A stretch of DNA of 64,000 nucleotides. It comes from Flavobacteriales bacterium. GTDB taxonomy: Bacteria > Bacteroidota > Bacteroidia > Flavobacteriales_E > Vicingaceae. The notes under the pieces are model-generated. The model saw nothing but the letters and a program-made list of their open reading frames with translations. It made no database searches and was not told the DNA's origin. The stretch covers positions 1 through 64,000 of the forward strand of contig NVUQ01000001.1 of assembly GCA_002401955.1 (NCBI GenBank), written 5' to 3'. A program made the translations under genes and the position numbers. Below, in pieces: positions 5,046-63,914 of the stretch; the first letter of the stretch is position 1; each line of letters starts with the position of its first letter.

Positions 5046-5485
5046 CTAAAATTGAGTTAGGTTGTATTCCTTTATATCATAAGAATTATTTGGGCGTTTA
5101 TCGGGTTAGGAATATATTCTGAGAGGAGCCGAAAGGTTGTGTCTTTTTTTAACTTGATTGTTGAGCGGAGTTGAAATTCGGGGGTAGAAAAAAAAGGATG
5201 CCATTTCCATTCCTAACGCAAAACAAAAAAATAATTTGGGGTTTAATTACGTTTTATGATTAATTATTTTACTTACTCAAAATTTCGAAATTAAGAAAGG
5301 CTTGTTAATAAGATTCGTAAAATTCGCCAGAAGATAGTTCCCTTATAACTTATCTTGCTAATTGAAATGTTGAAAAATATAGTGGATGAAATGTTGCATA
5401 AAATCGACCAATCTACTTTATAATTGTACTAGGAATTTTAGCAGTAGAATTCTATTTTTAATTAACGAATAAAACCCTTTCAGGA
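5046..5485. other. Intergenic region between hemAC and nrdJ
   Basis: About 440 bp without a credible gene. It contains the inverted-repeat element at 5105-5217. The part from 5230 to 5485 shows no promoter, riboswitch fold or ORF that I can support. A cobalamin riboswitch was looked for because nrdJ follows, and no B12-box-like sequence was recognised. Confidence 0.6.
5105..5217. repeat. Intergenic inverted-repeat element
   Basis: Nine-base arms GTTAGGAAT (5105-5113) and ATTCCTAAC (5209-5217) enclose about 95 bp. That interior includes GGAGCCGAAAGG, GAGCGGAGTTGAAA and, on the minus strand, GGAAATGGCATCC followed by a T run. From memory, very similar GGAAATGGCATCC elements are dispersed in flavobacterial genomes. 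No coding potential. Confidence 0.6.
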
Positions 5486-8116: not shown

Positions 8117-8140
8117 AATATTAGAAAAGCGTAAATAAAA

Positions 8141-8173
8141 AAAAGGCTTTGAATTTATTCAAAGCCTTTTTTT
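8141..8173. terminator. Bidirectional terminator between nrdJ and the ECF operon
   Basis: The stem GGCTTTGAA / TTCAAAGCC (8145-8166) with a 4-nt loop is flanked by A on the left and T on the right, so it can end transcription from both convergent sides. Confidence 0.85.
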
Positions 8174-8624
8174 ATAATGTAGCAATAGTAACTGGAGCAC
8201 CATGGTGATCTGATGGACCAATAATTTCGCCTTTAAAATATAGCGAATTGTTTTTTGATAGTAATTCAATGTTGTACTTGTGAGATTGGTTTTTTACTGA
8301 TTTGTTTTGAGGTATTTCACCAATCATTTGGCTATTATAATAAACCAATAATATTTGGCTTCCTTTTTCAGAAGGAATTTTATTGATTTGTTTTCCATTT
8401 TTATAAACAACTAGATCTTTACACAGAACATCTTTAGATTCGCACACCCATTTTATTTCAAGTAAATTTTTATCAATATTTTCATTAGTAGAAACAGTTA
8501 GGGGGTTTCCGTAAACAAAATGTTGAAGATAAGTTATTGGAGTGTTTCCTTTGTTTAAGCTTGGGTGTAAAGCAAATATCCCTGAAAAGAATAGGATGGA
8601 TAATATGTTTTTAGATAAAGTCAT
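8172..8624 (-). CDS. Exported protein of unknown function, end of ECF operon
   Basis: This 150-residue protein has a hydrophobic N-terminus (about residues 5-21) that looks like a signal peptide, though no clear cleavage motif is seen. The mature part is mostly predicted beta strand, has two cysteines close together (WVCESKDVLC) that could form a disulfide, and ends GPSDHHGAPVTIATL. I do not recognise the family. It lies 54 bp after the barrel protein and in the same direction, so it is probably the third gene of the sigma factor operon. Confidence 0.65.
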   Translation of the reverse strand: MTLSKNILSILFFSGIFALHPSLNKGNTPITYLQHFVYGNPLTVSTNENIDKNLLEIKWVCESKDVLCKDLVVYKNGKQINKIPSEKGSQILLVYYNSQMIGEIPQNKSVKNQSHKYNIELLSKNNSLYFKGEIIGPSDHHGAPVTIATL

Positions 8625-8678
8625 TTAATCTTAATTGCTTTATTACTAACACGTGGAAGGTTGTGGAAAGGTTGGAAT

Positions 8679-10238
8679 TTATTTTCCTTTTTTTAAGAAA
8701 ATATATTTAACACCTAGATTAAACTCGAAAGAAAAGTTTCTTGAAGCTGAAAAAGGGCTGCTATCTTTAGCATTGTTGGTTAATCCTTGATTGTATCTTA
8801 TACCTGGCGTAATTACCAACGTTTTTGTAATGTATCTATCTTGTTCAATTCCTAAAACAATCCCAAAATCAGTTTTAGTGTAGTCATCTAGTTTTTTAGA
8901 AGCACCATTTACATAAGAAACAGCTGACCTTAAATAACTTGCGTAAATTCCGCCAATAAGGTTGGTAGAATATACTTTATTGTCAAAAGTAGATTTGGTG
9001 TTCATTTTTTTAGCCAACAAACTAATAGAAGTGTAATTGAGATTTAGATTTTCTTGGTATAAAATGCCTTCTCTGTCAAATTCTCTTTTGTATCCCGAGG
9101 TAGAATTAAGGTTAATATTTGTTTCCATATTTAATTTGTCAGAAACAATAAAACCAACAGTTCCTCCAAAATTGTATCCAAAATCTAGCAAGGTATTTTG
9201 GTTGTATTCAGAAAGTGGCGAGTTTTCTTTAAGAGAGGTAAACATCCCTTGCTTTTTAACACCAGCGTTAAACCCAACGTAAATTCTTCTCGTGTAAATT
9301 CCAAACATAGAGTAAGAAGAAAATCTTTTACTGTTAAACACAATTTTATTATTGTCTTTTTTAACGAGATATTCTCCACTCACATACATTCGAGCAATAT
9401 CTTTTTCAGATAGTTTTTTATGGGTGATGTTTGTGTTGATGTTTCTTTCAGTCTCAGATTTTAATTCATCTAGCTTGTCTTTGTAAATAGAACTATAAAA
9501 TTCTTGGATTTTTTTTATATAAGTATAAGAGGTGTTTTCTTTACTTCTACTGCGTTTGTTAGGTTTTGTGGGGTTTACACTTTCTTTAGCATTTTGAAGG
9601 GTGGCAGCTATTTTTTCTTCAGGAGTTAGGTTTGTTTTGTTGTTAGATATTGTTTTTAAATCGTTTGAGTTGGCACTTAAAGCTGTGTTGTCTTTTTTAG
9701 ATGCTACATTTTTGTCAGCCTGATTAGTTGTGCTTGATTCGTTTTTAGTATCATTTAAAAAGGCAGCTTCGTAAGTTGTAGTGCTTTTGTTTGGAGTGTT
9801 AGTTAAGGAGCTAGCATTATTACTTTTAACAGTGTTTTTTTTAAGAGTAGTTATGTTGCTAGCAATTTGCTTGTTGTTAGTAGAGTAGTTGTCGTAAGCT
9901 AAATAGCTTCCAAAAAGTAAAAGAAAAACTGCAGTTCCTCTAATGGCTATATTTTTCCACCAAATAAGTTGATCATACCTATTTAATGATATCGCTAATT
10001 TATCCCAAACAGAAACTGTATCTAATCGAGTAGAAAGTTTTTCCCAAACCGTATAATCTGGTCGCTCTTCGAGTTTAGTTACTTCTTTTTTATACCATTC
10101 ACTAATCGTTTCGTCAGTTAGTGGTGTACTAGCATCTAGCTCTTCAGAAAGAGATTTCCATAGGTTTTTGTCGGGCTCAACATTGTAGTTGCTCAGCTCG
10201 TCTCTATACCAATCCTCTATGTTGTCTATATCTTTCAA
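8679..10238 (-). CDS. Anti-sigma-like membrane protein with C-terminal beta-barrel
   Basis: 519 residues with an unusual layout. Residues 7-35 and 45-73 are two copies of a roughly 30-residue module (xxxWYxxExxx...PDxxxWxxLSxxLD), with a third partial copy VWDKLAISL at 77-85. A single membrane helix follows (about 96-116), then a long Ser/Thr/Asn/Lys-rich segment (about 117-300), and finally strand-rich sequence (about 310-519) with Gly/aromatic alternation like the outer-membrane beta-barrel family, ending in KYIFLKKGK. Position 9 bp after an ECF sigma factor suggests the N-terminus binds the sigma factor. The protein may link the outer membrane to the cytoplasm; this is inference. Confidence 0.75.
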   Translation of the reverse strand: MKDIDNIEDWYRDELSNYNVEPDKNLWKSLSEELDASTPLTDETISEWYKKEVTKLEERPDYTVWEKLSTRLDTVSVWDKLAISLNRYDQLIWWKNIAIRGTAVFLLLFGSYLAYDNYSTNNKQIASNITTLKKNTVKSNNASSLTNTPNKSTTTYEAAFLNDTKNESSTTNQADKNVASKKDNTALSANSNDLKTISNNKTNLTPEEKIAATLQNAKESVNPTKPNKRSRSKENTSYTYIKKIQEFYSSIYKDKLDELKSETERNINTNITHKKLSEKDIARMYVSGEYLVKKDNNKIVFNSKRFSSYSMFGIYTRRIYVGFNAGVKKQGMFTSLKENSPLSEYNQNTLLDFGYNFGGTVGFIVSDKLNMETNINLNSTSGYKREFDREGILYQENLNLNYTSISLLAKKMNTKSTFDNKVYSTNLIGGIYASYLRSAVSYVNGASKKLDDYTKTDFGIVLGIEQDRYITKTLVITPGIRYNQGLTNNAKDSSPFSASRNFSFEFNLGVKYIFLKKGK

Positions 10239-32783: not shown

Positions 32784-33650
32784 ATGAGGTTAAGTGGTGA
32801 GTTGAAAATACTCCTTGGAGCATCATTATTTGCCTTCATACCTGTTGGCGTAAAAATGGATCCAGCATCAAGTTTATGTTCGTTAATTTTTGGACGTTTG
32901 CTAGTGGCTAGTATTGTTTTGTACCTCCTAAATAGGAGGTGCAAAACTTTTTTTAAATTAGGTAGAGCTGAGTTTTTTCATCTTGTTGTGTGGGCGGGAT
33001 TAATGTTGTTTGCTATGTTGTTTTACTTTTATGCAATTACTGAAATTGGAGTAGCTGTTTCATCCGCTTTACTTGGTATTCAGCCCTTGGTATTAGTGTT
33101 AATGTCAGCTTTTTTTATTGGCGAAAAAATTTCCTTTCAAGCTTGGGCTGCTTGCATACTTACACTTTTAGGAATAGTTAGTATTCTAGATTTGAACTTT
33201 TTTACTCAGGGTTCATTTGGTTTAGGTCAGTTTGCAGCACTATTTTCTGCTGTTTTATTAGGATTTGTGTTTGTTTATCAAAAAAAATATTTAAGTGGTA
33301 TCGGAACTCAAAAAGCAGTTTTTTATCAAAGTGCATTTCAATTACCTATCCTTCTTCCATTAACTTTTATTTATCCTCCAATTTTTTCAGTTGATTATGT
33401 TTCTTCCATAATTGTTCTTGGAATTTTATGTACAGTTGTTTCTTATGGTTTGATATATTCTGGAGTAAAAAATGTTGCTGTACAAAAAATAGGAATACTA
33501 CAAAGTGTTGAGTATGTTATTCCTGTTTTTATTGGTTTGTTTTTTTATAACGAAATTTTAAGTTGGAAAGCAATTGTAGGAACAGTATTAATATTGGCTG
33601 CGTGTATTTGTGTTAAGGTAAGAGTTAAGAAAATAAGTCTAAATAGTTAG
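32784..33650 (+). CDS. EamA/DMT-family transporter
   Basis: 288 residues from ATG 32784, one base after the stop of the preceding gene (a TTG at 32772 also opens the frame). Ten hydrophobic helices in two repeats of five, with EamA-type phrases such as GVAVSSALLGIQPLVLVLMSAFFIGEKIS closing each half. Such proteins export amino acids or other metabolites. It is co-oriented with the peptidase and serine hydrolase genes and likely in the same operon, which would fit export of amino acids released from peptides; this is inference. Confidence 0.9.
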   Translation: MRLSGELKILLGASLFAFIPVGVKMDPASSLCSLIFGRLLVASIVLYLLNRRCKTFFKLGRAEFFHLVVWAGLMLFAMLFYFYAITEIGVAVSSALLGIQPLVLVLMSAFFIGEKISFQAWAACILTLLGIVSILDLNFFTQGSFGLGQFAALFSAVLLGFVFVYQKKYLSGIGTQKAVFYQSAFQLPILLPLTFIYPPIFSVDYVSSIIVLGILCTVVSYGLIYSGVKNVAVQKIGILQSVEYVIPVFIGLFFYNEILSWKAIVGTVLILAACICVKVRVKKISLNS

Positions 33651-33685
33651 ATTAGGCTGATTATGAGGGGGTTAATCTTGTTTTT

Positions 33686-33856
33686 CGTTTAGCGAGCTGG
33701 TTATGAGTAGTTTGGGATTTGAAAGTATAAACCCTAATATTCCTGTTGTCATTATTTCATTTTTATATTGCACCTAATCTACTTATTGGTCGTGTTTTAA
33801 TAAAGCATTAAAGTTTTAGTTTAGTAAGCTTGTGCCTATTTGCTATATACACTGTT
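33686..33856 (-). repeat. Cassette-boundary-like element A
   Basis: Read on the minus strand it starts with AACAGTGTATATAGCAAATAGG, which includes the last codons of the alpha/beta hydrolase gene, and ends with CATAACCAGCTCGCTAAACG. Both ends match element F at 63718-63914 (for example CGTTTAGCGAGCTGG versus CGTTTAACGACCCGG on the plus strand). Its 78-bp part at 33779-33856 matches element B with about six differences. Confidence 0.75.
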
Positions 33857-34762
33857 GGTGTTAGTTTTTAATCGTTTATTGAACCAAGTTATTACTAAAT
33901 CGTTTAATTCCGTTTTTTTATTAGAAAAGAAATGGTCAGTTTCAAACTTCCTTAATTCAAAGTCGTAATCAAGCTCTTTTAATTTGTTCGCAATTTTATC
34001 CGCCTGTTCTGGGTTTACTCTTTTGTCATTTGTTCCGCACAAAATTAGCAAGCTACTATTCTGATCTAATTCGTTAGCCCAATAAATTGCTGAACGTTTT
34101 TTTAATTCCGATTCTTTGTTTTTCCAATAATTAGGTATGCATTCCGCAAATACATTGGTCTCCATTATGGGCCTAAATTTTACGGTGTTAAATAAATCAG
34201 ATGCCCCATTTCCAATAATTGCAGTTTTTATTTTGTCCGATTTCTGAAGAGCTAAATATGTCATCATGCCACCTCTCGACCATCCAAACATTCCTATTCG
34301 ATTTGGGTCTGCTTTCTTAATACCTTTTACAGTTTCAGTTAGGTGTAGAACATCATTTATTTCTGCACCACCAAATTCATCTTTTTCTCGATAGTTACTT
34401 CCAATTATGACATAACCTTGTTCGGCCAATTTGGAAGTTAACATTATCATTGTAGCAATTGTTAATTGGCCAAAATCTCTATTTCCACCACGATTAAAAA
34501 TCACAACTGGATACTTTCCCTCTTTTTTTGGTTCAACTAATATGCCTTTTACTATAAGGTTATCACTTTGGTAGGTTATAAAGTGAAAATCTAGTTTGTT
34601 TAAATGTTTAAAATTCGTTTTTAAAGTATCGTTTTTAGAAACTTTATTCCAAATAGGAGTTTGGCTAATATTGACTAATTTTTTAGATAGAAGTTCCCCG
34701 TTTTGAGCAAACCCAAAAACTGTAAAAAAAAGAGAAAATATTAAAAGTGTGGTTTTTATCAT
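33836..34762 (-). CDS. Exported alpha/beta hydrolase (S9/dienelactone hydrolase-like)
   Basis: 308 residues. Signal peptide 1-19 (ending VFGFAQ). The catalytic triad can be placed: Ser162 in GWSRGG, Asp246 in CGTNDKRV and His277 in ETDHFF, the order of prolyl-oligopeptidase-like and dienelactone hydrolase-like enzymes without a propeller domain. It acts in the periplasm on an unknown ester or peptide. Its last codons (NTNSVYSK) lie within a repeated element, shared with the downstream end of the next gene over. It stands between elements A and B like a single-gene cassette. Confidence 0.88.
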   Translation of the reverse strand: MIKTTLLIFSLFFTVFGFAQNGELLSKKLVNISQTPIWNKVSKNDTLKTNFKHLNKLDFHFITYQSDNLIVKGILVEPKKEGKYPVVIFNRGGNRDFGQLTIATMIMLTSKLAEQGYVIIGSNYREKDEFGGAEINDVLHLTETVKGIKKADPNRIGMFGWSRGGMMTYLALQKSDKIKTAIIGNGASDLFNTVKFRPIMETNVFAECIPNYWKNKESELKKRSAIYWANELDQNSSLLILCGTNDKRVNPEQADKIANKLKELDYDFELRKFETDHFFSNKKTELNDLVITWFNKRLKTNTNSVYSK

Positions 34763-34785
34763 TTGTTGTTTTAATTACCGTTATT

Positions 34786-34863
34786 CTACTTATTGGTCGT
34801 GTATTAATAAAGCATTAAAGTTTTAGTTTAGTAAGCCTGTACCTATTTGCTAGATATAGTGTT
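34786..34863 (-). repeat. Cassette-boundary-like element B
   Basis: 78 bp matching 33779-33856 at about 72 positions. It begins, on the minus strand, within the last codons of the serine hydrolase gene (AACACTATATCTAGCAAATAG) and runs to CGACCAATAAGTAG. It lacks the far end seen in A and F, so it is shorter. Confidence 0.8.
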
Positions 34864-36528
34864 GCCTACAGCACTTTTGTTTTTTATAAACCACATATCA
34901 TTAATTCTATTCAAACTTACCGAAATACCTATTATTTCACCGTTTATATCCCTTTTATATTTTGAAAACGCCATTCCCGACCAGCTTGTAACATCTTTTT
35001 TTAATAGTTCGATATAGAACTCTCCGTGCCTATAGTGATACCCAATTAGATTGCCATTTATTAGTGAAATGAGATAGGTCGTTTCAAGTTCAGGACTATA
35101 AAATGATCCAACATATTCTTGCAATTGTTTTTTTGTTGCAGGAGTGCTGTCGTATTTAATAAATATAGCTGGAAGATTATTTCCATCTTTAACAATCATT
35201 TTTTTTTGATTATCATCATTAAACTTCACAGTAATAATATCGCCTTTTATTTCTCCCATTTGAAATTTATGTTCGTCAATTGGTATTAAAGGTGATTTGC
35301 TACCATTGGTTCTTTGATACCAAAGTGTATCGTTTTTGAAGTAAATTTTTCGAGCGTAATTGTCTTTATCATTCCAATAATCCCCAGAATATTTTTTTAC
35401 AAGGTCTAATATTAGTGCAATCGGTTTTAATGTCTTTTGTTTACTTGCTTTTGGTTTATGTTGTTTGTTTTTTAAGAATAACTGAGTTAATCTTATGTTT
35501 TGATGGTTTACTTGTTGTGAAGTTAAATTAGTAAGGAGTACGATTGTTAATTCCTCTTCGGGGTAGCATGTGGCAAACGATAAGTAGCCTGGCACACCTC
35601 CAGTATGTTGTACTCTTTTATTACCAAAAAATTCATCAACAAATACCCCATAGGCATAATTGTTAGCAGTTCCGTTAATTAAGGTATCGGTAGTTTTTAG
35701 TAAACTAAATGCTTTTGCCCATTGTTGAGATGGCTTATAAAAGTTTTGCATCCATACTGTTAAGTCTTGTACAGAACTATATATGTTTGAAGCTCCAATG
35801 TCTAGGCTGCTATTTTCGCCAACAATATATTGTTGCTCACCCACCATCATATAAGGAGTTGCAATATTTGCATTTGAATTACTATTAGATTCATCAACAA
35901 ATGTGCTTGTCATATTTAATGGAATAAAAATATTCTCTTTCATCCATTCATTAAAATTTTGTTGTGTAACGGTTTCTATTATTTTGGCTAATAATATATA
36001 TCCAGAATTAGAATACATGAACTCACTACCAGGTTCAAAATTTAAATGGGTTTGTTTACATAAATAACGATAGTCATCATCTGTGGTAATGGCATCACCA
36101 TCTCTCCATCCAGCTAGTCCAAATAATTCAGGAGTGCTTCGAATTCCGCTTGTATGATGCAGTAAATGACGAATGCTAACTTGATGGTTAAACCCTTTTA
36201 ATTCAGGTAAATATTTACAAATGTCATCATCAATTGAAAGTTTGTTGTCTAAGTGTAGAAGTACAATTCCCATTGCTGTGAATTGTTTTGAAACAGAACC
36301 GATATTGAATATAGTTTCGGTTTTGTTCTGGATGTTGTATTTGATGTTTGCCAAACCATAAGCTTTTGAAAAAATAAGTTGATCTTTCTTCATTATTGAA
36401 ACAACTCCCCCAGGATGGTTGGGTTGATTCCATTCATTAAAAATTAGGTTAATTTTATCATTAAGGTTTTGAGCTGATGCATATAAACTAAAGATTGAAG
36501 CAAATAGGATTAAGATATTTTTTTTCAT
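34843..36528 (-). CDS. Exported serine hydrolase (beta-lactamase family)
   Basis: 561 residues. The signal peptide ends YASAQ (residue 20). SxxK is GSVSKQF (Ser78, Lys81), the Tyr motif is MYSNSGYILLA and the third motif is HTGGVPGY. About 170 further residues follow the catalytic domain, as in Pab87/EstB-like secreted hydrolases with a C-terminal lipocalin-like domain. There is no type IX tail. It lies downstream of a LytTR two-component pair in the same direction, which may control it. Its stop codon is inside element B. Confidence 0.9.
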   Translation of the reverse strand: MKKNILILFASIFSLYASAQNLNDKINLIFNEWNQPNHPGGVVSIMKKDQLIFSKAYGLANIKYNIQNKTETIFNIGSVSKQFTAMGIVLLHLDNKLSIDDDICKYLPELKGFNHQVSIRHLLHHTSGIRSTPELFGLAGWRDGDAITTDDDYRYLCKQTHLNFEPGSEFMYSNSGYILLAKIIETVTQQNFNEWMKENIFIPLNMTSTFVDESNSNSNANIATPYMMVGEQQYIVGENSSLDIGASNIYSSVQDLTVWMQNFYKPSQQWAKAFSLLKTTDTLINGTANNYAYGVFVDEFFGNKRVQHTGGVPGYLSFATCYPEEELTIVLLTNLTSQQVNHQNIRLTQLFLKNKQHKPKASKQKTLKPIALILDLVKKYSGDYWNDKDNYARKIYFKNDTLWYQRTNGSKSPLIPIDEHKFQMGEIKGDIITVKFNDDNQKKMIVKDGNNLPAIFIKYDSTPATKKQLQEYVGSFYSPELETTYLISLINGNLIGYHYRHGEFYIELLKKDVTSWSGMAFSKYKRDINGEIIGISVSLNRINDMWFIKNKSAVGNTISSK

Positions 36529-36647
36529 TTCATTATTTTTAATTGATTAATAGTTCAACAAAAATCAATGAAAAGTAATGGTGTTCAAAAGTTAATATGC
36601 AAGGAGGTAATTGTTGTCTGTAAAAAGTGATTTATTATCTGTAAACC

Positions 36648-37334
36648 TTATTTTATCAGCTTAAAAAAATGTTCTTTATAAGTATCCGAAATAGGAATTA
36701 ATTTATCAGTAATCTTTATTCTACTTCGTTCTATAGATTCTATTTTGTCTATAGCTACCATATAAGATTTATGAACCCTACAAACAATACTTGATGGGAT
36801 AAGTTGTTCTAACTCTCCAAAGTTTTGTAAAGTCATAATCTTGTTAAATCGTGTATGAATTCTTCGATAATCACTCATGCCTTCAATGTAAATAATATCA
36901 CTTAAATTGACCTTTTCTAACCGATTTTCAGTTTTAATGAAAATGAAATCTTTCGTTATATCAGGCGTGGTTTTTCTTATAATTTCATGCACTTTGTTTA
37001 CCGCAGTCAAAAACCTATCGAAGGTAAATGGTTTCAGTAAATAGTCGGTAACATTAAGTTCATAACCTTTTAGTGCATATTCTTGGTAAGCGGTTGTGAT
37101 AATAACTTGACTATCTATTTTTGAACTTTGCAGTAATTCAATACCAGAAAGTTCATCCATATTAATATCTAAAAAAAGTATATCTACAACATTTGATTTT
37201 AGATAGGCAAGACCATCAAGAGCGTTATCAAAAACAGCACATAGTTTTAGAAAAGGTATTTTCTCAACAAAACCTTTAGTTCTTTCAAGAGCTAAAGGTT
37301 CGTCTTCTATTATGATGCAGTTATACTTATTCAT
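36648..37334 (-). CDS. LytTR-family response regulator
   Basis: 228 residues. The receiver domain has acidic residues IIIEDEP, phospho-acceptor Asp56 in LFLDINMDELSG and the conserved Lys in YLLKPFTFDRF. The C-terminal LytTR DNA-binding domain (about 130-228) contains DIIYIEGMSDYRRIHT and RVHKSYMVAIDKIESIER. It overlaps the sensor gene by 8 bp, so the pair works together. The serine hydrolase gene lies 119 bp downstream in the same direction and is a plausible target. Confidence 0.93.
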   Translation of the reverse strand: MNKYNCIIIEDEPLALERTKGFVEKIPFLKLCAVFDNALDGLAYLKSNVVDILFLDINMDELSGIELLQSSKIDSQVIITTAYQEYALKGYELNVTDYLLKPFTFDRFLTAVNKVHEIIRKTTPDITKDFIFIKTENRLEKVNLSDIIYIEGMSDYRRIHTRFNKIMTLQNFGELEQLIPSSIVCRVHKSYMVAIDKIESIERSRIKITDKLIPISDTYKEHFFKLIK

Positions 37335-38364
37335 TGTTTATGATCAAAGATACGCTATAAAGACCATTTTTATTAAATACTTCTAATTTATGCTTGTCTT
37401 TATAGATTAGGTTTAAACGTTTCTGAATCAATCTATTACCTAATCCGTTAGTCTCTTGTTGTTTTATTTCATTTGCATTGAATTTGTTTTCGCATTTCAT
37501 TTTTATGTTATCTTTCTCAATAGAAATGTTCACGTTAATGGCATTATCTTCTTTTTTATTTGAAGTATGTTTAAAAGCATTTTCAATAAAGGGGATAAAA
37601 ACCATTGGAGCAATTTTTTTACCCTCTGGATTACCATTTACCGAGAAGTTTACATAGTTTGAATTGGAAGTACGTATTTTTTGTAATTCAATATACTTTT
37701 TAATGTATTCTAGCTCTTTTGTAAGTGAGATACTATCCGTTTTGTTGTCAAATAACATAAAGCGCATGATGTCAGATAGTTTATTTAAATAGTTTGAAGC
37801 TTCTTCAGGAGATTTTAGAATCAAAACATCAATATTGTTTATCGTGTTAAATAAAAAGTGTGGGTCTAATTTAGATTTAATTAAGGCTAACTCCATTTCA
37901 TGATTCTTTTGAGACAACTCTTCTTTTATTTTTAATTCTTCATACCAACTAATAAATCCTTTTAAAATAAGACCGACTATTCCACATATAAGAGCTATAA
38001 AATACATGAAAATAAGTTCGCCAAAAAAGGAGTTATATTGGTCTTGAAACATAAAATTAGCTCCAAACATTATGGATAAAATAATGCTTCCGATTAAGGC
38101 AGAGCCAATTGAAATACCTATTCCATAGATAACGCACAGAAGCACCTTTTTGTACTTTAGATACTTAGGAAGCAAGAATAGGTAAAATAAATAAAACGAA
38201 ATTATAGAGGGAATTATCGCAAACCCTAAAATAAGTTTAATAACATACGTTAAAGGAGGTATTGCTGTTTGTCCTTGAGATGTTGCTGCTAGTATTATTA
38301 GTAAGAGGAGAGAATAACATCCCCAAAAACCTACGTGTAATGTAATAATTAATGATTTTTTCAT
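37327..38364 (-). CDS. LytS/YehU-type sensor histidine kinase
   Basis: 345 residues. Four membrane helices (about 7-27, 44-65, 77-100, 115-137) are followed by a His_kinase domain of the LytS type. The phosphorylated histidine is His169 in DPHFLFNTINNID, the N box is PFIENAFKHT and the G box GLGNRLIQKR is near the end. No extracytoplasmic sensor domain, so it probably senses within the membrane. Together with the LytTR regulator it forms a complete two-component system. Confidence 0.92.
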   Translation of the reverse strand: MKKSLIITLHVGFWGCYSLLLLIILAATSQGQTAIPPLTYVIKLILGFAIIPSIISFYLFYLFLLPKYLKYKKVLLCVIYGIGISIGSALIGSIILSIMFGANFMFQDQYNSFFGELIFMYFIALICGIVGLILKGFISWYEELKIKEELSQKNHEMELALIKSKLDPHFLFNTINNIDVLILKSPEEASNYLNKLSDIMRFMLFDNKTDSISLTKELEYIKKYIELQKIRTSNSNYVNFSVNGNPEGKKIAPMVFIPFIENAFKHTSNKKEDNAINVNISIEKDNIKMKCENKFNANEIKQQETNGLGNRLIQKRLNLIYKDKHKLEVFNKNGLYSVSLIINNE

Positions 38365-38501
38365 AGTTTAAATTTTTTTATTGATTAATTTAAATCAAAA
38401 GTCATTGATTAAGGGATACTTAGAAAAAGTATTATGTAAACGGGAGGTATTCATCTGTGATTAATGAATTTTAATCTGTAACATTTTTTCATTGTAGGCA
38501 A

Positions 38502-38560
38502 TCTACTTATTGGTCGCGTTTCACTTCGACTTACATTTTGTAAAACGAAGTTAGCTTTTT
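38502..38560 (-). repeat. Cassette-boundary-like element C (partial)
   Basis: TCTACTTATTGGTCG (38502-38516) is shared with elements A and B. It is followed by a hairpin with arms ACTTCG/CGAAGT and TTAC/GTAA. It lies upstream of the histidine kinase gene, where the end of the preceding cassette would be expected. Confidence 0.6.
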
Positions 38561-38647
38561 TTAAAGAGAAAGTAAAGAGCTATTACTTAAGGTGTATCCT
38601 TTTTAATTTTTTGTATTACAAGTGTATCAACCAAATCTTTAATTGTA

Positions 38648-39328
38648 ATGCGTGTAATATTATTGGTAGTGTTAGTTAGTATGATAGGAAGCGTTTTTGC
38701 TCAAAAAACGAAAACTTACAATCAGCTTATTGCTGATGTCAAATTAGAAAGAGGGATGTTAAGTTCTTCCTATCTAGGTGGTGATTCAGCAAAACAACAC
38801 AAGTCAGTCTTTGCAGCTAAAGATTATATTTACACGCAGCTGATAGAGAATATTTTTCCGAGTTGGTACGGAACCGAATGGGCTTATGAAGGTTACTCTA
38901 ATGTACCTAAAAAAGGATTAATTGCTTGTGGTTATTTTGTTGCCACCACCTTAAAACACATTGGATTTAATCTAAATCGTTATAAATTGGCTCAGCAATA
39001 TTCAACCGGAATAGTTAAAACACTTTGTAGCAATATTCAATATGTTCGAAATAACGATACTGAAAAACTGTTTCGATACATTAATTCAAAACCAAAGCAG
39101 TTGTATGTAGTTGGGTTGGATAACCATGTTGGGTTTATCTCTAAAGAAAAAGATGGTGTTTATTTTATTCATTCTTCATATCTCGATGAATCAGTTGTGA
39201 TAAAAGAAAATGCTCAAACTTCAGAAGCGTTAATTTCTTCCAATCTCTTTGTGTTAGGAGAATTTACACAAAATGATGCGCTTGTTAAATCTTGGTTGTT
39301 GAATAGGGAAGTTGTAATCAGGAAATGA
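38648..39328 (+). CDS. Exported papain-fold-like protein (putative cysteine peptidase)
   Basis: 226 residues. Signal peptide 1-19 (ending SVFAQ). A cysteine at the start of a helix, Cys94 in LIACGYFVATTL, and a histidine at the start of a strand, His160 in GLDNHVGFI, followed by VYFIHSSY (His175), are arranged as in NlpC/P60 and related papain-like amidases. I do not recognise the exact family, and cell-wall amidase or peptidase activity is a guess. It is the only plus-strand gene in the cassette-like stretch and is convergent with the orphan gene across element D. Confidence 0.7.
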   Translation: MRVILLVVLVSMIGSVFAQKTKTYNQLIADVKLERGMLSSSYLGGDSAKQHKSVFAAKDYIYTQLIENIFPSWYGTEWAYEGYSNVPKKGLIACGYFVATTLKHIGFNLNRYKLAQQYSTGIVKTLCSNIQYVRNNDTEKLFRYINSKPKQLYVVGLDNHVGFISKEKDGVYFIHSSYLDESVVIKENAQTSEALISSNLFVLGEFTQNDALVKSWLLNREVVIRK

Positions 39329-39345
39329 AAAGAATTGTTCTTGGT

Positions 39346-39584
39346 AACGACAACTGTATGTTGCGTTTATTACAGTTGTTTAATTGCACCAAAGTAATGA
39401 AATTTTGTAGATGTACCACACAGCAATTGACAATTAAGTAGGAGAAAAGCTAATTAACAGAAGCAAGGATGCAACTTGCAAAACCCTTAGATAACCACCT
39501 ACAAAATGAATGGCACTAACTCACCAAATTCAAAAAAAAACTACAACTGCTCGCAGCCCAAATGCAATATACAAATTGTTGGGG
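39346..39584 (-). repeat. Cassette-boundary-like element D (about 239 bp)
   Basis: Near-copy of element E at 40180-40417. The first 134 nt on the plus strand (39346-39479) are identical as far as I can see, and the rest is similar with small changes. The ends are inverted-repeat-like: CAACGAC/CAACTGTATG at one side and CAATTTGTATATTGC at the other on the minus strand. It abuts the stop codon of the orphan gene at 39585. Confidence 0.9.
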
Positions 39585-40163
39585 TTAGTTTAGTTCTTTC
39601 CCTAGTTTCTCAAATATGTTGAAATGGTGTCTATCTGTGCTTATTTGTATAGAGAGAATATTTTTCTTAAGAATAACTTGAAACATTTCCCCAGAGTCAA
39701 AAAATGGTCTTAATGTAGTTGTTAATTTCTGCAATAAGTCTTGATTTTCTTGATTAGAAAAAACAATGTATTTACGGTTTTCGGAATATAGATTTGCATT
39801 TTTAATGCTTAATAACAGAAAAACATCCCAAATAGTTTTTCTACGAATTTTTAATGACCCGTATCCTTCGAGTTTTGTTTCCCACTTGGCAATTAAGGAG
39901 AGAACATATTCCTTGTATTCTTTTTCACTCTGAAGAATTGGTGTTGAACCGAGAGAAGTGTTGTTAGATTTCTTGTATGACAAAACCCATTCTTTTGGAA
40001 CATTAATTTTTCCTGATACATAATATGCCCAAACATTAAATTTTCCTTTCACTTGTCCATTTCGCTCTAGGACATATTTTTCAAATTCCTCACAAAAATT
40101 TTTGTTAGCAATGTAAAAAGGATTGTCAAGTTCGTCTGGTAGAGAATTTGATTTTATAGCCAT
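39585..40163 (-). CDS. Orphan protein flanked by near-identical repeats
   Basis: 192 residues starting at the ATG at 40163 (MAIKSNSLPDELDN); the frame runs on upstream into element E but that lead is not plausible. No signal peptide, membrane segment or recognised motif. The middle is helical and charged, with a strand-rich end (QVILKKNILSIQIST). The gene sits exactly between elements E and D, with its stop codon touching D, like a one-gene cassette. I cannot assign a function. Confidence 0.7.
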   Translation of the reverse strand: MAIKSNSLPDELDNPFYIANKNFCEEFEKYVLERNGQVKGKFNVWAYYVSGKINVPKEWVLSYKKSNNTSLGSTPILQSEKEYKEYVLSLIAKWETKLEGYGSLKIRRKTIWDVFLLLSIKNANLYSENRKYIVFSNQENQDLLQKLTTTLRPFFDSGEMFQVILKKNILSIQISTDRHHFNIFEKLGKELN

Positions 40164-40179
40164 AATATTTATTAACACC

Positions 40180-40417
40180 AACGACAACTGTATGTTGCGT
40201 TTATTACAGTTGTTTAATTGCACCAAAGTAATGAAATTTTGTAGATGTACCACACAGCAATTGACAATTAAGTAGGAGAAAAGCTAATTAACAGAAGCAA
40301 GGATGCAACTTGCGAAGCTTTTAAATAAACACCTACAAAATGAATGGCACTAACTCACAAAATTGTCAAAAAGTTAAAACTGCTCGCAACCCAAATGCAA
40401 TATTACAACTTGTTGGG
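40180..40417 (-). repeat. Cassette-boundary-like element E (about 238 bp)
   Basis: Partner of element D, 834 bp away. On the minus strand it begins ACCCAACAAGTTGTAATATT, 23 bp after the stop codon of the lipoprotein gene, and ends CATACAGTTGTCGTTGG, 17 bp before the ATG of the orphan gene. Inside it has complementary segments such as ATTTTGTAGATGT and ACACCTACAAAAT, so it could fold as one long imperfect hairpin. Confidence 0.9.
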
Positions 40418-40439
40418 TTTTCGTTATTAATAACTAAGA

Positions 40440-41522
40440 TTACTTACTTTTTGTCATTAAGTCACTATTGCCTACATACATAGCAAAGTAAGGGAATTTA
40501 CTGTTTTCTCGTTTTAAAAGAATAATATATGGCTTGTCAAAGACTAAATTCTTAGGTGTTGGTTTTTCTTCTGGTTCTTCCATCGCAGCCTCTTCAACAC
40601 ATTCTTCTTCAGCAAAACTTTCCACTATAGCGCCATTTTCATCAAGAATAAATGCATTTTTTTGATAGAATTGAACAATATTAAAAGTGTCCATATTTTC
40701 CAATGAGAACTGAGTACCTTCAATATTGGTGAAATGATGGTCTAAATGAAATTTAATTATAGGTATTCTTACTTTGTCTTCATCTGTTATTCTATATTTC
40801 CATTTGTTATTTGGTGAATATTTTTCTTTACGGGATTTTTCACTTTCTGTTAATTTATTTATTTCATCATGCATTATAATGTTCTCCTGAAATGAGGATT
40901 TGATTAGAATAATTTCATGTTCCTCGTCATCTGGGTACAATTTTAATGCAAAATCGTCATCATTATTGTAGTATAGAATTTGAGCTGGTCCATAATGATC
41001 AAATCCGAAACTAGCAACATTGTCATTAAAAAAGGAAACTTCGTCTTCATATTTGTTTAATGGGTATGAAAAAGGTAGTCCTTTTTTGAAATAGGCCTGA
41101 GCTTTAATTTCACGTTGATTGGTTATTGGATCTTTGAATACTTGGATTGATGTTCTATATTCATTTTGTTTTAATACATTCTGAAAACTCTTAGAGTTAG
41201 TCATTAAAGTTAGGTCATTACTTTCGCAACTTTCTATGGCAGACCCAATAGTATCTTGAATTTGATTCCAAGCCATACATAGGGTTGCCGAATAAATGGC
41301 GTTTGTTTTATTATTGAAGGATGATTCAAGTGTTGAAAGAAAAATGGTATTCCCGTTAGAATTTAAGGTTTGTAATTCAGGAAAAGAGGAGTCAAAACTA
41401 ATATTACTTAAATCTTCATTCTCAATTTTGATTTCTGTAATGATTTCATTTTCATCATTATTGGAATTTGGATGACAACCAACAATTACAAGAACTAAGA
41501 TGAAGAATATTAATCGATTCAT
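40440..41522 (-). CDS. Lipoprotein with serpin-like C-terminus
   Basis: 360 residues from ATG 41522. A lipoprotein signal (LVLVIVGC) puts the lipid-bearing Cys near residue 16. The C-terminal region resembles serpins in order. VRIPIIKFHLDHHF recalls the strand before the reactive loop, AFILDENGAIVESFAEEE resembles the hinge, then comes a Glu/Pro-rich loop, and KPYIILLKRENSKFPYFAMYVGN matches the serpin ending PFLFLI...FMGRV. Serpins trap proteases irreversibly. This match is by eye only; length suits the fold. It is followed by element E. Confidence 0.6.
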   Translation of the reverse strand: MNRLIFFILVLVIVGCHPNSNNDENEIITEIKIENEDLSNISFDSSFPELQTLNSNGNTIFLSTLESSFNNKTNAIYSATLCMAWNQIQDTIGSAIESCESNDLTLMTNSKSFQNVLKQNEYRTSIQVFKDPITNQREIKAQAYFKKGLPFSYPLNKYEDEVSFFNDNVASFGFDHYGPAQILYYNNDDDFALKLYPDDEEHEIILIKSSFQENIIMHDEINKLTESEKSRKEKYSPNNKWKYRITDEDKVRIPIIKFHLDHHFTNIEGTQFSLENMDTFNIVQFYQKNAFILDENGAIVESFAEEECVEEAAMEEPEEKPTPKNLVFDKPYIILLKRENSKFPYFAMYVGNSDLMTKSK

Positions 41523-41555
41523 ATTTATTATTTTGATGTAATGAAACCCAACAAT

Positions 41556-41583
41556 CAAATAAACGCACTAGTACGTTTATTTG
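41556..41583 (-). terminator. Hairpin after the PHP-domain gene
   Basis: The stem CAAATAAACG / CGTTTATTTG (10 bp) has an inner ACTAGT palindrome. It lies just after the stop of the PHP-domain gene, but the T run is weak, so it may be an attenuator or processing site. Confidence 0.5.
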
Positions 41584-41589
41584 TTTAAT

Positions 41590-44238
41590 TTACTGTTTAA
41601 TAATCTTTTTAACTATTGGTGCGTTGTTTTCTTGGTAGATTATTAAGTTGTAAAACCCTTTACTTAAGTGAGAAACATCAATAAACTCAAAGTTGTTGTT
41701 AATTTTATTCTGAGTAATTAGCTGACCTAAATTATTAAATAAACTATACGTTGAAAATTCACTTGGGTTAGTTGTTTTAATTACCAATTGGTTAGTTGCT
41801 GGGTTTGGAAAAACAACTAAGTTGTTGCTTTGTTCCTCTTCAATTCCTGTAGGTTGTCCCCAGGTAATCCAAACGGGGTTGGTGTACGAATGAAAATAAT
41901 CATGGGTGGTTCTATGTTCATTAGTCGTAGCAGAATAATCAACATAAGTTTCAATTTCTGAACGTACATACAAGTATTGGTTGATTGGAGTATTTCCAAC
42001 ACCAAAAACAGAATCTAATAAATCCATTAAGTTGTAACTTTTAAGAATATCTCCAGATGAGGCTGTTAAGCTTAACTCTTTTTTGATTTCACCAGTAGGA
42101 GTACCTACTATAAAGGTGAATTTTGTAAAATCTCCAAATTCTGGAGTTGTGGTATAGTTGAAGTTTACAAAAATAGTTGATTGAGAATTTACATCAAGAA
42201 CAGAGTCTTCGCCCATCAATATTTCATTGCTAGTGTTATTTCCATCAAGACTTATCCCCATCGTGATTAATGGGCCGTCAGACATGCTGATATGTCCATT
42301 GTATAATGCTTTCAAAACTTCAGAACCGTTCGTTCCCATCCCGTTTGGACAATAAGCTAAGGTGTTTAACTTCCCTACAGCATTATTATTTATGGAGCCT
42401 GTGCCTCCTAAATTATCAGTATTGTTAGAGTTAAAAGAACCATGAGCATCAGAACCAGCAGAGTAATACATTTTCCAATTTTGAATAGAGTTATTAGCGT
42501 TTTTAGCTGTAAGACCTAACTGATTAATGTGGTTTATAACTTCTTGCCCCTGCTTTAATCGTTTATGATGAAATGAATGTAATGAAGTGTCCACTTGATT
42601 CATTGCCGCTCCAATATTTGTAACATCCCAAGGGTCATTATCATAGCCTGTTAAACCACTAACTTCAATGTTTGAACGGACATTCCAAATCTGACCACCT
42701 TTAATAGCATCTTTTATTAATTTGTTAGATGAAGCATCTAAAATGTCTGAATTTACCCCCGTATTATTACAAATAATATTTCCTCCTATTCCAGGAAAAG
42801 AATTTCCATTTACAGGAAATCCTGCATCGCCTAAGTTCCAGATGCCTCCATTTACCGGAACTAATGGTAGTGCGTCTTCAGTGGCAAAAGGGTGTGCACA
42901 ATAAGAAAACCCATCAGCTGAAACCAATTGACTTACCACGCTATCAATATTGACTCCCGTAGCTATTAAATCACCATAACCATCTCCAAGAAAAGGAAAA
43001 ACAGTAGGGCTATTATAGCTTGGATAAGCTAGCATGTGAACCAGTTTGTTTTCACTATTTGTAGTGGCAACTTCTTGTCCTGCTATATAAATTAAGGAAT
43101 TGTCATTTGCATTAAGAGATGTTACTTCGTTTTGAAGTGCAGTCCAATTAGTGTTGATGTTAAAATTTCCATAATTGTCAAAATCAGAAGTATGATCAGT
43201 AGTGGTTATCCAGTCAAGACCAATAAGTTTTGCTGCTTCTTTAGTTGCGCAAAGTGGTAAACCTAATTCAGCATCATTTTGAGTGTATACAGAGTGTAAA
43301 TGGGTATCACCTCTATAATAATTTGCTTGAGAAGGAATATCATCATTAGATCTGAAAATACGCATTCGTATTACATCATCAGTAGTTATAAGAGTGTTGG
43401 CATAATTAACGGTTACTTCAATGTCAATTATATCATCTAGTCCTATTAGATCTGAAGCAGGTATATTAAAATTAAAATACCAGAAAGCATTAGGAACACT
43501 TACGTAATCGTCAAAGAAGTCAGATTCGCTATCAAAATCCATTGTGTAACTTGATGTTGGGGTTAAGGCCGTTACATCAAATGCTTTAATATCCAATCCA
43601 GGATCGTTGATAGAAGGGCAAGAAAACATGTTGTTGAAAGTGTTTGTAGGGATTGTGTTGTAAGTTAGAATACTTCCGAATGCAGGACTTGAAGCACTTT
43701 TTATTTTAATGTTGATGTAATCTACTTTTAAAGTAAACCCTATTATTTGATCTGCATCGTGTAGAAAAAAATGTAGAGGTATAGGTAAATCGTTTCCTGA
43801 ACCATCCGTTTTTTTCATTCTCCAAGGAGCATCTACATAAAATTCAGAGAATACTGAATTAGTTTGTTTTAAGATAGTAGGGGAATCCCATCCGCCCCAG
43901 TCATGTGTCTTATTAAATATTTTAGTTATTTCAATTTGGATTAAATCTGTTTCAGGATTGATATCTTTTTCGTTAAACGTGAAATGATCATCAATAAACT
44001 TTTTGTCTCCTGATATCAATTTAAAAAAATGTGATTGTATAGATTTTCCATTTTTTAAAAAATCTATTTGTACATTTTCAAAAGGAGTGTTGGTAATGTT
44101 TTCAATTTTAAAAGAGTAGGTAATTTTTCCAGTTTCAGAATTTGAAATTTCAACCTGTTCAATGCTTAGGTATTCACCTCGGTGAGCCATTGTGTTAAAA
44201 CTTATCACAATTAATGCTAACGAAAAAAAGATTTTCAT
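41590..44238 (-). CDS. Secreted PHP-domain protein with T9SS type A tail
   Basis: 882 residues from ATG 44238 (open frame to 44289). The signal peptide ends near NTMAHRG. A beta-rich N-terminal third is followed by a PHP metal-dependent phosphoesterase-like domain. It has the metal motif DTHLHSVYT (His313, His315), then WITTTDHTSD, YIAGQEVATT and HMLAYPSY, as in the CehA/McbA type. The C-terminus VVFPNPATNQ...GFYNLIIY is a type A sorting domain. It is probably a cell-surface or secreted hydrolase. The promoter lies close to that of the divergent marR gene. Confidence 0.9.
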   Translation of the reverse strand: MKIFFSLALIVISFNTMAHRGEYLSIEQVEISNSETGKITYSFKIENITNTPFENVQIDFLKNGKSIQSHFFKLISGDKKFIDDHFTFNEKDINPETDLIQIEITKIFNKTHDWGGWDSPTILKQTNSVFSEFYVDAPWRMKKTDGSGNDLPIPLHFFLHDADQIIGFTLKVDYINIKIKSASSPAFGSILTYNTIPTNTFNNMFSCPSINDPGLDIKAFDVTALTPTSSYTMDFDSESDFFDDYVSVPNAFWYFNFNIPASDLIGLDDIIDIEVTVNYANTLITTDDVIRMRIFRSNDDIPSQANYYRGDTHLHSVYTQNDAELGLPLCATKEAAKLIGLDWITTTDHTSDFDNYGNFNINTNWTALQNEVTSLNANDNSLIYIAGQEVATTNSENKLVHMLAYPSYNSPTVFPFLGDGYGDLIATGVNIDSVVSQLVSADGFSYCAHPFATEDALPLVPVNGGIWNLGDAGFPVNGNSFPGIGGNIICNNTGVNSDILDASSNKLIKDAIKGGQIWNVRSNIEVSGLTGYDNDPWDVTNIGAAMNQVDTSLHSFHHKRLKQGQEVINHINQLGLTAKNANNSIQNWKMYYSAGSDAHGSFNSNNTDNLGGTGSINNNAVGKLNTLAYCPNGMGTNGSEVLKALYNGHISMSDGPLITMGISLDGNNTSNEILMGEDSVLDVNSQSTIFVNFNYTTTPEFGDFTKFTFIVGTPTGEIKKELSLTASSGDILKSYNLMDLLDSVFGVGNTPINQYLYVRSEIETYVDYSATTNEHRTTHDYFHSYTNPVWITWGQPTGIEEEQSNNLVVFPNPATNQLVIKTTNPSEFSTYSLFNNLGQLITQNKINNNFEFIDVSHLSKGFYNLIIYQENNAPIVKKIIKQ

Positions 44239-63085: not shown

Positions 63086-63712
63086 ATGGAAACAACACAA
63101 GCACCATACACGATTTATGCAGAAAGCACACCTAACCCGAATACAATGAAATTTGTATCGAACAGGTGGTTAATTACCAATAACAAATCTTATGAGGTAT
63201 TAGCCGATCAGCGTGTTGGAAGCCCATCACCATTGGCAGAGAAGTTGTTTAGCTTTCCGTTTATTAATGGTGTTTTTATTTCTGCAAACTTTGTTACAGT
63301 TACTAAATCAGAATCTATAGAATGGACCGATGTAATGATAGAATTGAGAGATTTTATTTCTAATTATCTCAATACTAAAGGTATGGAAGTAATTCGAGAA
63401 GAATTTTTAACTGAAGATACTGTAGCAGAAACAACAGGAGATACTGGTACAGCTCAATCAACTTCTAAAAAAGAGTTGACAGATTTTGATAAGAAGATAG
63501 TAGAAATATTAGATGAATACATAAAACCTGCAGTAGAAAGCGATGGTGGAGCAATAGAATTTGATTCTTTTGAAGATGGTATTGTAAAAGTGATTTTAAA
63601 AGGGGCTTGTAGCGGATGTCCTTCATCTACTGCTACGCTAAAAGGAGGAATAGAATCTTTACTAAAAAGTATGCTCCCTGAAGTAAAAGAGGTTGAAGCT
63701 ATTAATGGGTAA
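63086..63712 (+). CDS. nfu: Nfu-type iron-sulfur cluster carrier
   Basis: 208 residues in two parts. The N-terminal Nfu_N domain (about 8-95) begins IYAESTPNPNTMKFV. After a Thr/Ser/Glu linker, the NifU C-terminal domain (about 130-205) has the cluster-binding CxxC in KGACSGCPSSTATLKGG (Cys175, Cys178). It carries 4Fe-4S clusters to apoproteins in the cytoplasm. The gene is monocistronic, and the repeat element F begins right after it. No isc or suf genes are in the window. Confidence 0.94.
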   Translation: METTQAPYTIYAESTPNPNTMKFVSNRWLITNNKSYEVLADQRVGSPSPLAEKLFSFPFINGVFISANFVTVTKSESIEWTDVMIELRDFISNYLNTKGMEVIREEFLTEDTVAETTGDTGTAQSTSKKELTDFDKKIVEILDEYIKPAVESDGGAIEFDSFEDGIVKVILKGACSGCPSSTATLKGGIESLLKSMLPEVKEVEAING

Positions 63713-63717
63713 ATGTT

Positions 63718-63914
63718 CGTTTAACGACCCGGCTATGTTTTTGTAGGGCGATTTAAAAGTACTTATTTTCGTTTAGCTAATTAGCCAAAGCTTAGGATTT
63801 GGGTTTTAACTTTTTTCTGATAAAACGTCAAAACAAAGTTTTGGCGGAGTTTATTAATAGCACGGAACTTTCGTAAACCAACGAACGTCTATTTGTTATA
63901 TACAGTGTTACCTG
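63718..63914 (-). repeat. Cassette-boundary-like element F
   Basis: On the minus strand it starts AACACTGTATATAACAAATAG, overlapping the stop codon of the partial gene, and ends CATAGCCGGGTCGTTAAACG, 5 bp from the nfu stop. Both ends match element A at 33686-33856, 30 kb away. Inside is a hairpin with CAAAAC/GTTTTG arms near 63828-63845. Confidence 0.75.

Follow-up and report, generated by a model that had tools for sequence, protein, structure and literature searches.

The window, that is, the whole stretch of 64,000 nucleotides analysed here, belongs to a draft genome of a Flavobacteriales bacterium (G000; 4.19 Mb in 150 contigs, 83% complete) and contains six repeated elements, A to F, on the minus strand. 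A sequence-only reading had taken the elements for the 3' ends of cassettes in an integron-like array. They were indeed found to be repeats: D (39346-39586) and E (40180-40420) are near copies with 92.6% identity across 242 nt, and E as the query gave 41 matches in the genome, of which ~20 were substantial and many lay in clusters on small other contigs. A and B form a second pair (33775-33857 and 34782-34864, 91.6% identity across 83 nt), C has only 18-40 nt in common with A and B and is a fragment, and F resembles A and B only in ends of ~21-25 nt (E value ~0.01 in the window-level comparison). The common ends that had been described for A, D, E and F are weakly alike inside the window and are secured by the genome-wide families, and their description as imperfect inverted repeats with unequal spacers was accurate. 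An Rfam search of the window returned tRNAs only and no family for the elements.

In an integron, what follows GTT is already part of the next cassette. The attC of a cassette carries an R'' box that complements the 5' end of the same cassette, and hence the previous boundary rather than its own. Elements D and E close two such cassettes, whose common start point, overlooked in the first reading, is an attI-like site at 41550-41583 (minus strand) consisting of the imperfect palindrome CAAATAAACGTACTAGTGCGTTTATTTG, ATT and the boundary GTTGGGTTTC. The palindrome (41556-41583) starts 6 bases past the stop codon of a gene for an 899-aa secreted protein; this neighbour gene was absent in all 13 congeners searched. 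Cassette 1 (40183-41552, minus strand) runs from this boundary to the attC-like site E, which has the R'' box ACCCAAC at 40412-40418 and the R' GTT at 40180-40182 followed by the tail GTTGGTGTTAAT; reverse-complementing the attI-like boundary gives the R'' of E (AAAACCCAAC). Its open reading frame (40440-41558, likely ATG start at 41522) matched no Pfam family. Cassette 2 (39349-40182, minus strand) runs from the boundary GTTGGTGTTA to the attC-like site D, the last of the mini-array, and its open reading frame, with a likely ATG at 40163 and its end at 39585, matched no Pfam family either. The R'' of D (CCCCAAC) shows one mismatch to the boundary of cassette 2, and its R' is GTTACCAAGAAC; D adjoins the 3' end of a 226-aa gene in the opposite orientation. 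As had been observed, the window holds no integrase gene, and the genome carries one on contig C5. The attI-like site with its two cassettes would represent a platform whose integrase has been lost, or else an ectopic target resembling attI.

The remaining elements on this side of the window have decayed and are interpretable only in part. The attC-like site A, formerly placed at 33686-33856, actually extends over about 33775-33865. B (34782-34866) has the R'' TGTAGGCAAC, and C (38482-38521; CCAATAAGTAGATTGCCTACAATG) is what remains of the 3' part of a site that has decayed. By our own reading of the sequence, the R'' of B still matches the tail of C, although GTT has decayed to GATT. Elements A to C look like the remains of an older array.

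Genome-wide arrays and a probable patchless integrase

Alignment of the copies of E revealed a variable interior and conserved ends, in which AAC and a short spacer lead into one stem arm, and the complementary arm leads through a longer spacer to GTT. Further families, which measure 51-296 nt from AAC to GTT and differ in their interiors, carry the same ends and alternate with these copies in the same arrays, of which many further fragments were found in G000. The copies lie 3' of unrelated genes, an outcome that had been named in advance as support. The arrays run one way, each cassette consisting of one or more genes and a 3' attC; in ten arrays, 98 of 108 open reading frames were on the array strand. 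Cassettes begin with the pattern GTT-N6-[CA]AT, and their cargo is varied, with secreted proteins that bear a Por sorting tail, a TonB receptor and its neighbours, a methyltransferase, a CAAX protease, an amidohydrolase, Sua5 and unknowns. None of the eight array cassette proteins tested matched the defence genes of PADLOC, which gave one weak match for the protein of the cassette ending in F.

A search for a tyrosine recombinase elsewhere in the genome, as had been advised, was successful. When the classical integron-integrase profile was run against G000 and 59 relatives, only sub-threshold matches were obtained, and the best of these fell into two parts that left the middle of the profile uncovered. 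One of the matches is a 382-aa tyrosine recombinase encoded in G000 on contig C5 (L093:16488-17636), close to the contig end. A palindromic stretch of 30 nt starts 10 bases past its stop codon and is followed by ATT and GTTAGCCAC, and a site with the R'' GTGGCTAAC lies 0.7 kb beyond this attI, giving the order integrase, attI, cassette. The integron of G000 is split over many contigs, and C5 and the array contigs are unjoined in this draft assembly. Orthologues of the C5 integrase were found in Vicingaceae and Flavobacteriales metagenome-assembled genomes, Aquimarina latercula, another Aquimarina, Tenacibaculum ovolyticum and a Saprospiraceae metagenome-assembled genome. The copy of T. ovolyticum is broken in appearance.

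The tyrosine recombinase genes stand beside arrays. At four loci (L118, L120, L121 and L126) attI comes next after the integrase, with one site or a chain of sites beyond it, and the same order was observed in more distant members of the Bacteroidota and in most of 19 loci from single-contig or long-contig genomes. At 25 of 35 integrase loci, including those of Aquimarina, T. ovolyticum and single-contig genomes, a GTT occurs 33-125 nt past the stop codon, and its next six bases are complemented 6/6 by a downstream R'', so that attI is the first boundary of the array; at the other ten, the simple finder recovered no such match. In one clade, a palindromic attI with changing letters follows 18 of 18 orthologous integrases. 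The arm ATAAACGTAC of the attI-like palindrome in the window is identical in the integrase-adjacent attI of N3M and G030. A profile built from 14 diverse members matched 83 of 247 Bacteroidota genomes, drawn evenly, at E < 1e-60, a figure that counts recombinases rather than proven arrays; weaker matches include other recombinases.

Alignment with IntI1 and IntI2 from plasmid records demonstrated that the stretch forming the additional domain of IntI (I2, or the patch) between strands of the catalytic domain is absent in every aligned Bacteroidota integrase. TIGR02249 was above its cut-off in none of the 60 genomes (G000 and the relatives) as against 27 of 75 Gammaproteobacteria, where the match to classical IntI is contiguous. 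Pfam recognised only the phage-integrase catalytic domain and SAM-like domains in the integrase, and the nearest solved structures were XerA (5hxy) and then IntI4 (2a3v). The AlphaFold model was of moderate quality (pLDDT 70); its N-terminal part, modelled with low confidence, may be a domain of mixed alpha/beta type. When a tree was built from the shared core, 15 IntI proteins formed one clade (100/100) among the patchless Bacteroidota proteins; the IntI clade together with G023C1 had a support of 97/92, and support was weaker further out. Four Xer proteins lay outside in a clade of their own (100/100), so that no grouping with XerC/XerD was obtained, the deep root being weak. Given this root and the thin sampling, the order of events that the tree may indicate is only a lead.

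It might be supposed that the window holds an ordinary attC cluster (CALIN) whose classical IntI is encoded elsewhere or lost from the draft, the patchless recombinase beside the arrays being unrelated to them. The window without an integrase and the ~17% of the genome that is missing agree with this, and classical integrons have been reported in a few Bacteroidetes such as Salinibacter ruber (PMC9024848). However, the relatives gave no IntI above the cut-off, and a patchless recombinase directly precedes an attI matched by the downstream cassette at most loci, complete genomes included. We consider the ordinary cluster improbable. The first reading had left the choice between an array lacking an integrase and a distinct exchange system of Bacteroidota, and each alternative holds in part: the window has a small array beside an attI-like site with the integrase elsewhere in the genome, and this array very probably belongs to such a system.

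Chained boundaries and differing gene content

Subsequently, the R'' boxes were compared with the boundaries along the arrays. Over 48 consecutive site pairs, R'' agreed with the previous boundary at a mean of 4.71 of 6 positions, and 33 pairs were perfect (6/6); the mean was 2.40 of 6 against the own boundary and 2.02 against shuffled boundaries, with a maximum of 2.62 in 1000 rounds. For example, the next site after the boundary GTTGTACAC at C142:3165 has the R'' GTGTACAAC. The test is independent, since sites are located by AAC, GTT and the inner stem alone, with no use of the bases tested for chaining. Boundary-supported sites amounted to 5.55 per 10 kb in the arrays, compared with 0.09 for the remainder of the window and 0.13 for reversed arrays. 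These comparisons demonstrate that cassettes are joined at GTT and that R'' complements the 5' end of the cassette.

The idea of a cassette array was accordingly right in essence, and it is the chained boundaries, not a canonical consensus, that settle it. Fits to RYYYAAC and GTTRRRY, to which the first reading had pointed, proved incidental: among 61 boundary-supported sites they occurred in 8 and 6, respectively, the fixed letters being AAC and GTT alone. The canonical attC consensus was therefore rejected as proof.

The gene content at one site was also found to differ among relatives. Site F (63723-63912, minus strand), with the R' tail GTTAAACGAA, is the attC-like end of a one-cassette insertion beside NifU (63086-63712), and the cassette carries a gene for a 263-aa protein (contig C89, 63908-64699). 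This insertion splits a lone attC site (TTCGTTTAAC...GGAC / GTTAAACGAA), the R' tail of F being its other half. The same two halves flank other genes in the relatives G001 and G004, so that G000, G001 and G004 have different genes at one shared site; in G006 and G008 the lone attC is absent, with neither of its halves found. Such swapping at element borders is what the earlier reading had asked for, and the differences are consistent with integrase-catalysed recombination. Furthermore, a 640-nt cassette occurs twice in tandem in G357 with 99.4% identity, both ends lying at boundaries.

Conserved regulatory or terminator hairpins at the 3' ends of genes would likewise lie just past stop codons and fold, as the elements do. 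As a full explanation, terminators are rejected by the chaining and by the differing genes at the NifU-side site in related genomes: the chaining to the previous element involves sequence outside the hairpin, and the sites, despite their range of lengths, are alike only in the architecture of their ends. We regard this explanation as very unlikely, and a side role of the elements as terminators is possible. Least credible, and rejected as contradicted by the chaining, is the insertion of MITE, REP or IS-like repeats independently near gene ends, which would suit the inverted-repeat ends, the high copy number and the several size classes, but can neither yield an R'' that is the reverse complement of the outer flank of the neighbouring element nor put an integrase-adjacent palindrome into the same chain; no boundary required target duplications as its explanation.

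attC stems and the proposed mechanism

We also analysed the terminal stems of the 61 boundary-supported sites. Among 124 mismatches, 109 were A (5' arm).C (3' arm) and 2 were C.A, figures that apply to Bacteroidota sites alone, as the finder recovered 0 usable sites from the classical attC control regions. At least two A.C mismatches were present in 47 of the 61 sites, and in 38 the pair was exactly five positions apart; several copies of the D/E type contain a bulged base, and the two-wobble pattern is general. An A.C mismatch on one strand is a G.T wobble on the other, and the bottom strand is therefore expected to fold better. Indeed, this strand was predicted to be the more stable one in 49 of the 61 whole sites (p 7e-9) and in 54 of the 61 ends-only constructs (p 7e-11), for which mononucleotide shuffles served as the folding control. 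Extrahelical bases of attC are read by the I2 helix of the classical IntI. Classical integrons use the bottom strand as the substrate, and extrahelical bases determine the choice of strand (PMC4792948); by analogy, the wobbles may do here what extrahelical bases do there.

Taken together, these findings indicate that the elements are very probably the attC-like recombination sites of an integron system with a wide distribution among Bacteroidota. Its putative integrase of ~380 aa, encoded directly upstream of its own attI and codirectional with it, has an N-terminal extension of ~100 residues, followed by a SAM-like core-binding domain and by a catalytic domain of the Xer/IntI type without the additional domain of IntI. 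Circular cassettes, consisting of one or a few genes and an attC, would be inserted at the GTT of attI and excised again by this patchless integrase. Each cassette of the array would start with the bases after GTT and carry their reverse complement in its own R'' box. The bottom strand of attC, in single-stranded form, would probably fold into the hairpin that is used, with two conserved G.T wobbles marking strand and position instead of extrahelical bases. The window would then represent two cassettes at an integrase-less attI-like site and one cassette in the lone attC beside NifU.

Tentatively, and as a possibility rather than an expectation, the Bacteroidota integrons might be a class of which the classical patch-bearing integrons form a derived branch. 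The recombination of cassettes as single strands would then be older than I2, and attC would be read via the G.T wobbles and a different part of the protein, perhaps the N-terminal domain.

Comparison with known systems

The I2 domain has been described as needed for cassette capture, and integron integrases as the only enzymes with this domain and with single-strand recombination (PMC7790495). Integron surveys require the domain (PMC9668308, PMC2426708), and published surveys would miss the Bacteroidota system because they demand a domain that its integrase lacks. The integrons of Salinibacter, Chlorobi, Ignavibacteriae and Archaea were found by searches needing the IntI-specific domain (PMC9024848, PMC9668308); they resemble the present system in that integrons exist near or within the Bacteroidetes/Chlorobi group, where such searches gave In0 elements and one complete integron, that of S. 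ruber (PMC9024848). Our literature search, with subscription papers and preprints outside its scope and earlier reports possible, found no report of Bacteroidota integrons without the domain. In the available text of a survey of an 'integron-like subgroup' (Smyshlyaev 2021, PMC8138268), the insertion in the catalytic domain is incompletely conserved, which fits patchless members; the same text holds the insertion essential for integron function and, unlike the present analysis, mentions neither arrays nor attI or attC for them. If the interpretation is true, patchless integrons in up to a third of the sampled Bacteroidota would be a large uncounted store of mobile genes, the origin of integrons would become testable, and a natural comparison for the recognition of folded strands would be at hand.

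With Xer and XerA recombinases, the Bacteroidota integrase shares a catalytic domain without the insertion, its best PDB match being XerA. In contrast to them, it has an extra N-terminal domain, adjoining attI and arrays, and several copies per genome, and the tree sets it apart from the Xer proteins.

Judged from its sequences, the system appears integron-like in every visible feature, yet not classical, in that the integrase is devoid of the additional domain and the R boxes depart from the consensus. Compared with classical integrons (IntI1, IntI2 and the Vibrio superintegron; TIGR02249), the integrase lacks I2 and has the N-terminal extension; the R boxes are any six bases next to AAC or GTT rather than RYYYAAC and GTTRRRY; and cassettes start with their own GTT-N6-[CA]AT pattern. 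Paired A.C mismatches, measured on Bacteroidota sites alone, mark the stem, and attI is palindromic in one clade and is located on the 3' side of the integrase gene, an arrangement also reported for archaeal integrons. Common to both are a tyrosine recombinase gene, an adjacent attI and a one-way cassette array; an attC that is an imperfect inverted repeat from AAC to GTT, with the boundary at GTT and an R'' complementing the 5' end of the cassette; and lone attC sites as secondary targets.

A duplicated cassette, a repeated gene and a possible large cassette

At locus L213 of genome G357, one 640-nt cassette was observed twice in tandem, ~7497-8777 past the integrase end, with 99.4% identity. 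Both ends of the copy coincided with cassette boundaries; this identity and these ends indicate that the pair is a recent duplication. At another integrase-bearing locus, L117 (C_MB131), two 1.18-kb stretches (5393-6568 and 7193-8369 past the integrase end) were 99.7% identical, and divergence started just inside the downstream attC of each. Judged from the sequences, this pair represents one gene carried with two different sites. In the window, a serine-hydrolase gene and those of a LytTR response regulator and a histidine kinase lie on the minus strand (34843-38364) between the decayed attC-like remnants B and C, and this segment is perhaps a single large old cassette.

Regions flanking the integrase gene

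Upstream of the integrase in L098 (upstream of 8134), a divergent gene encoding a 124-aa zinc-ribbon-like protein (weak Prok-RING_1 match) was found, as at orthologous loci of the integrase clade. Repeated ACGTTTAA motifs lie between this gene and the integrase; the gene or the repeats may be a regulator or operator. In Saprospiraceae L122, two tandem copies of an attI-like palindrome were observed downstream of the integrase (after 11131). In Tenacibaculum ovolyticum, attI and chained cassettes were still present despite an apparently interrupted integrase reading frame (L126, 10001-11106).

A plasmid-borne candidate

A 395-kb plasmid of Persicobacter sp. JZB09 carries a full-length patchless integrase (L155, 15001-16400; 43% identical). 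The site finder gave no matched site for the attI-like ATATACAATTGTTGGCGGTAAT that follows it. This locus is possibly a plasmid-borne integron of the patchless type.
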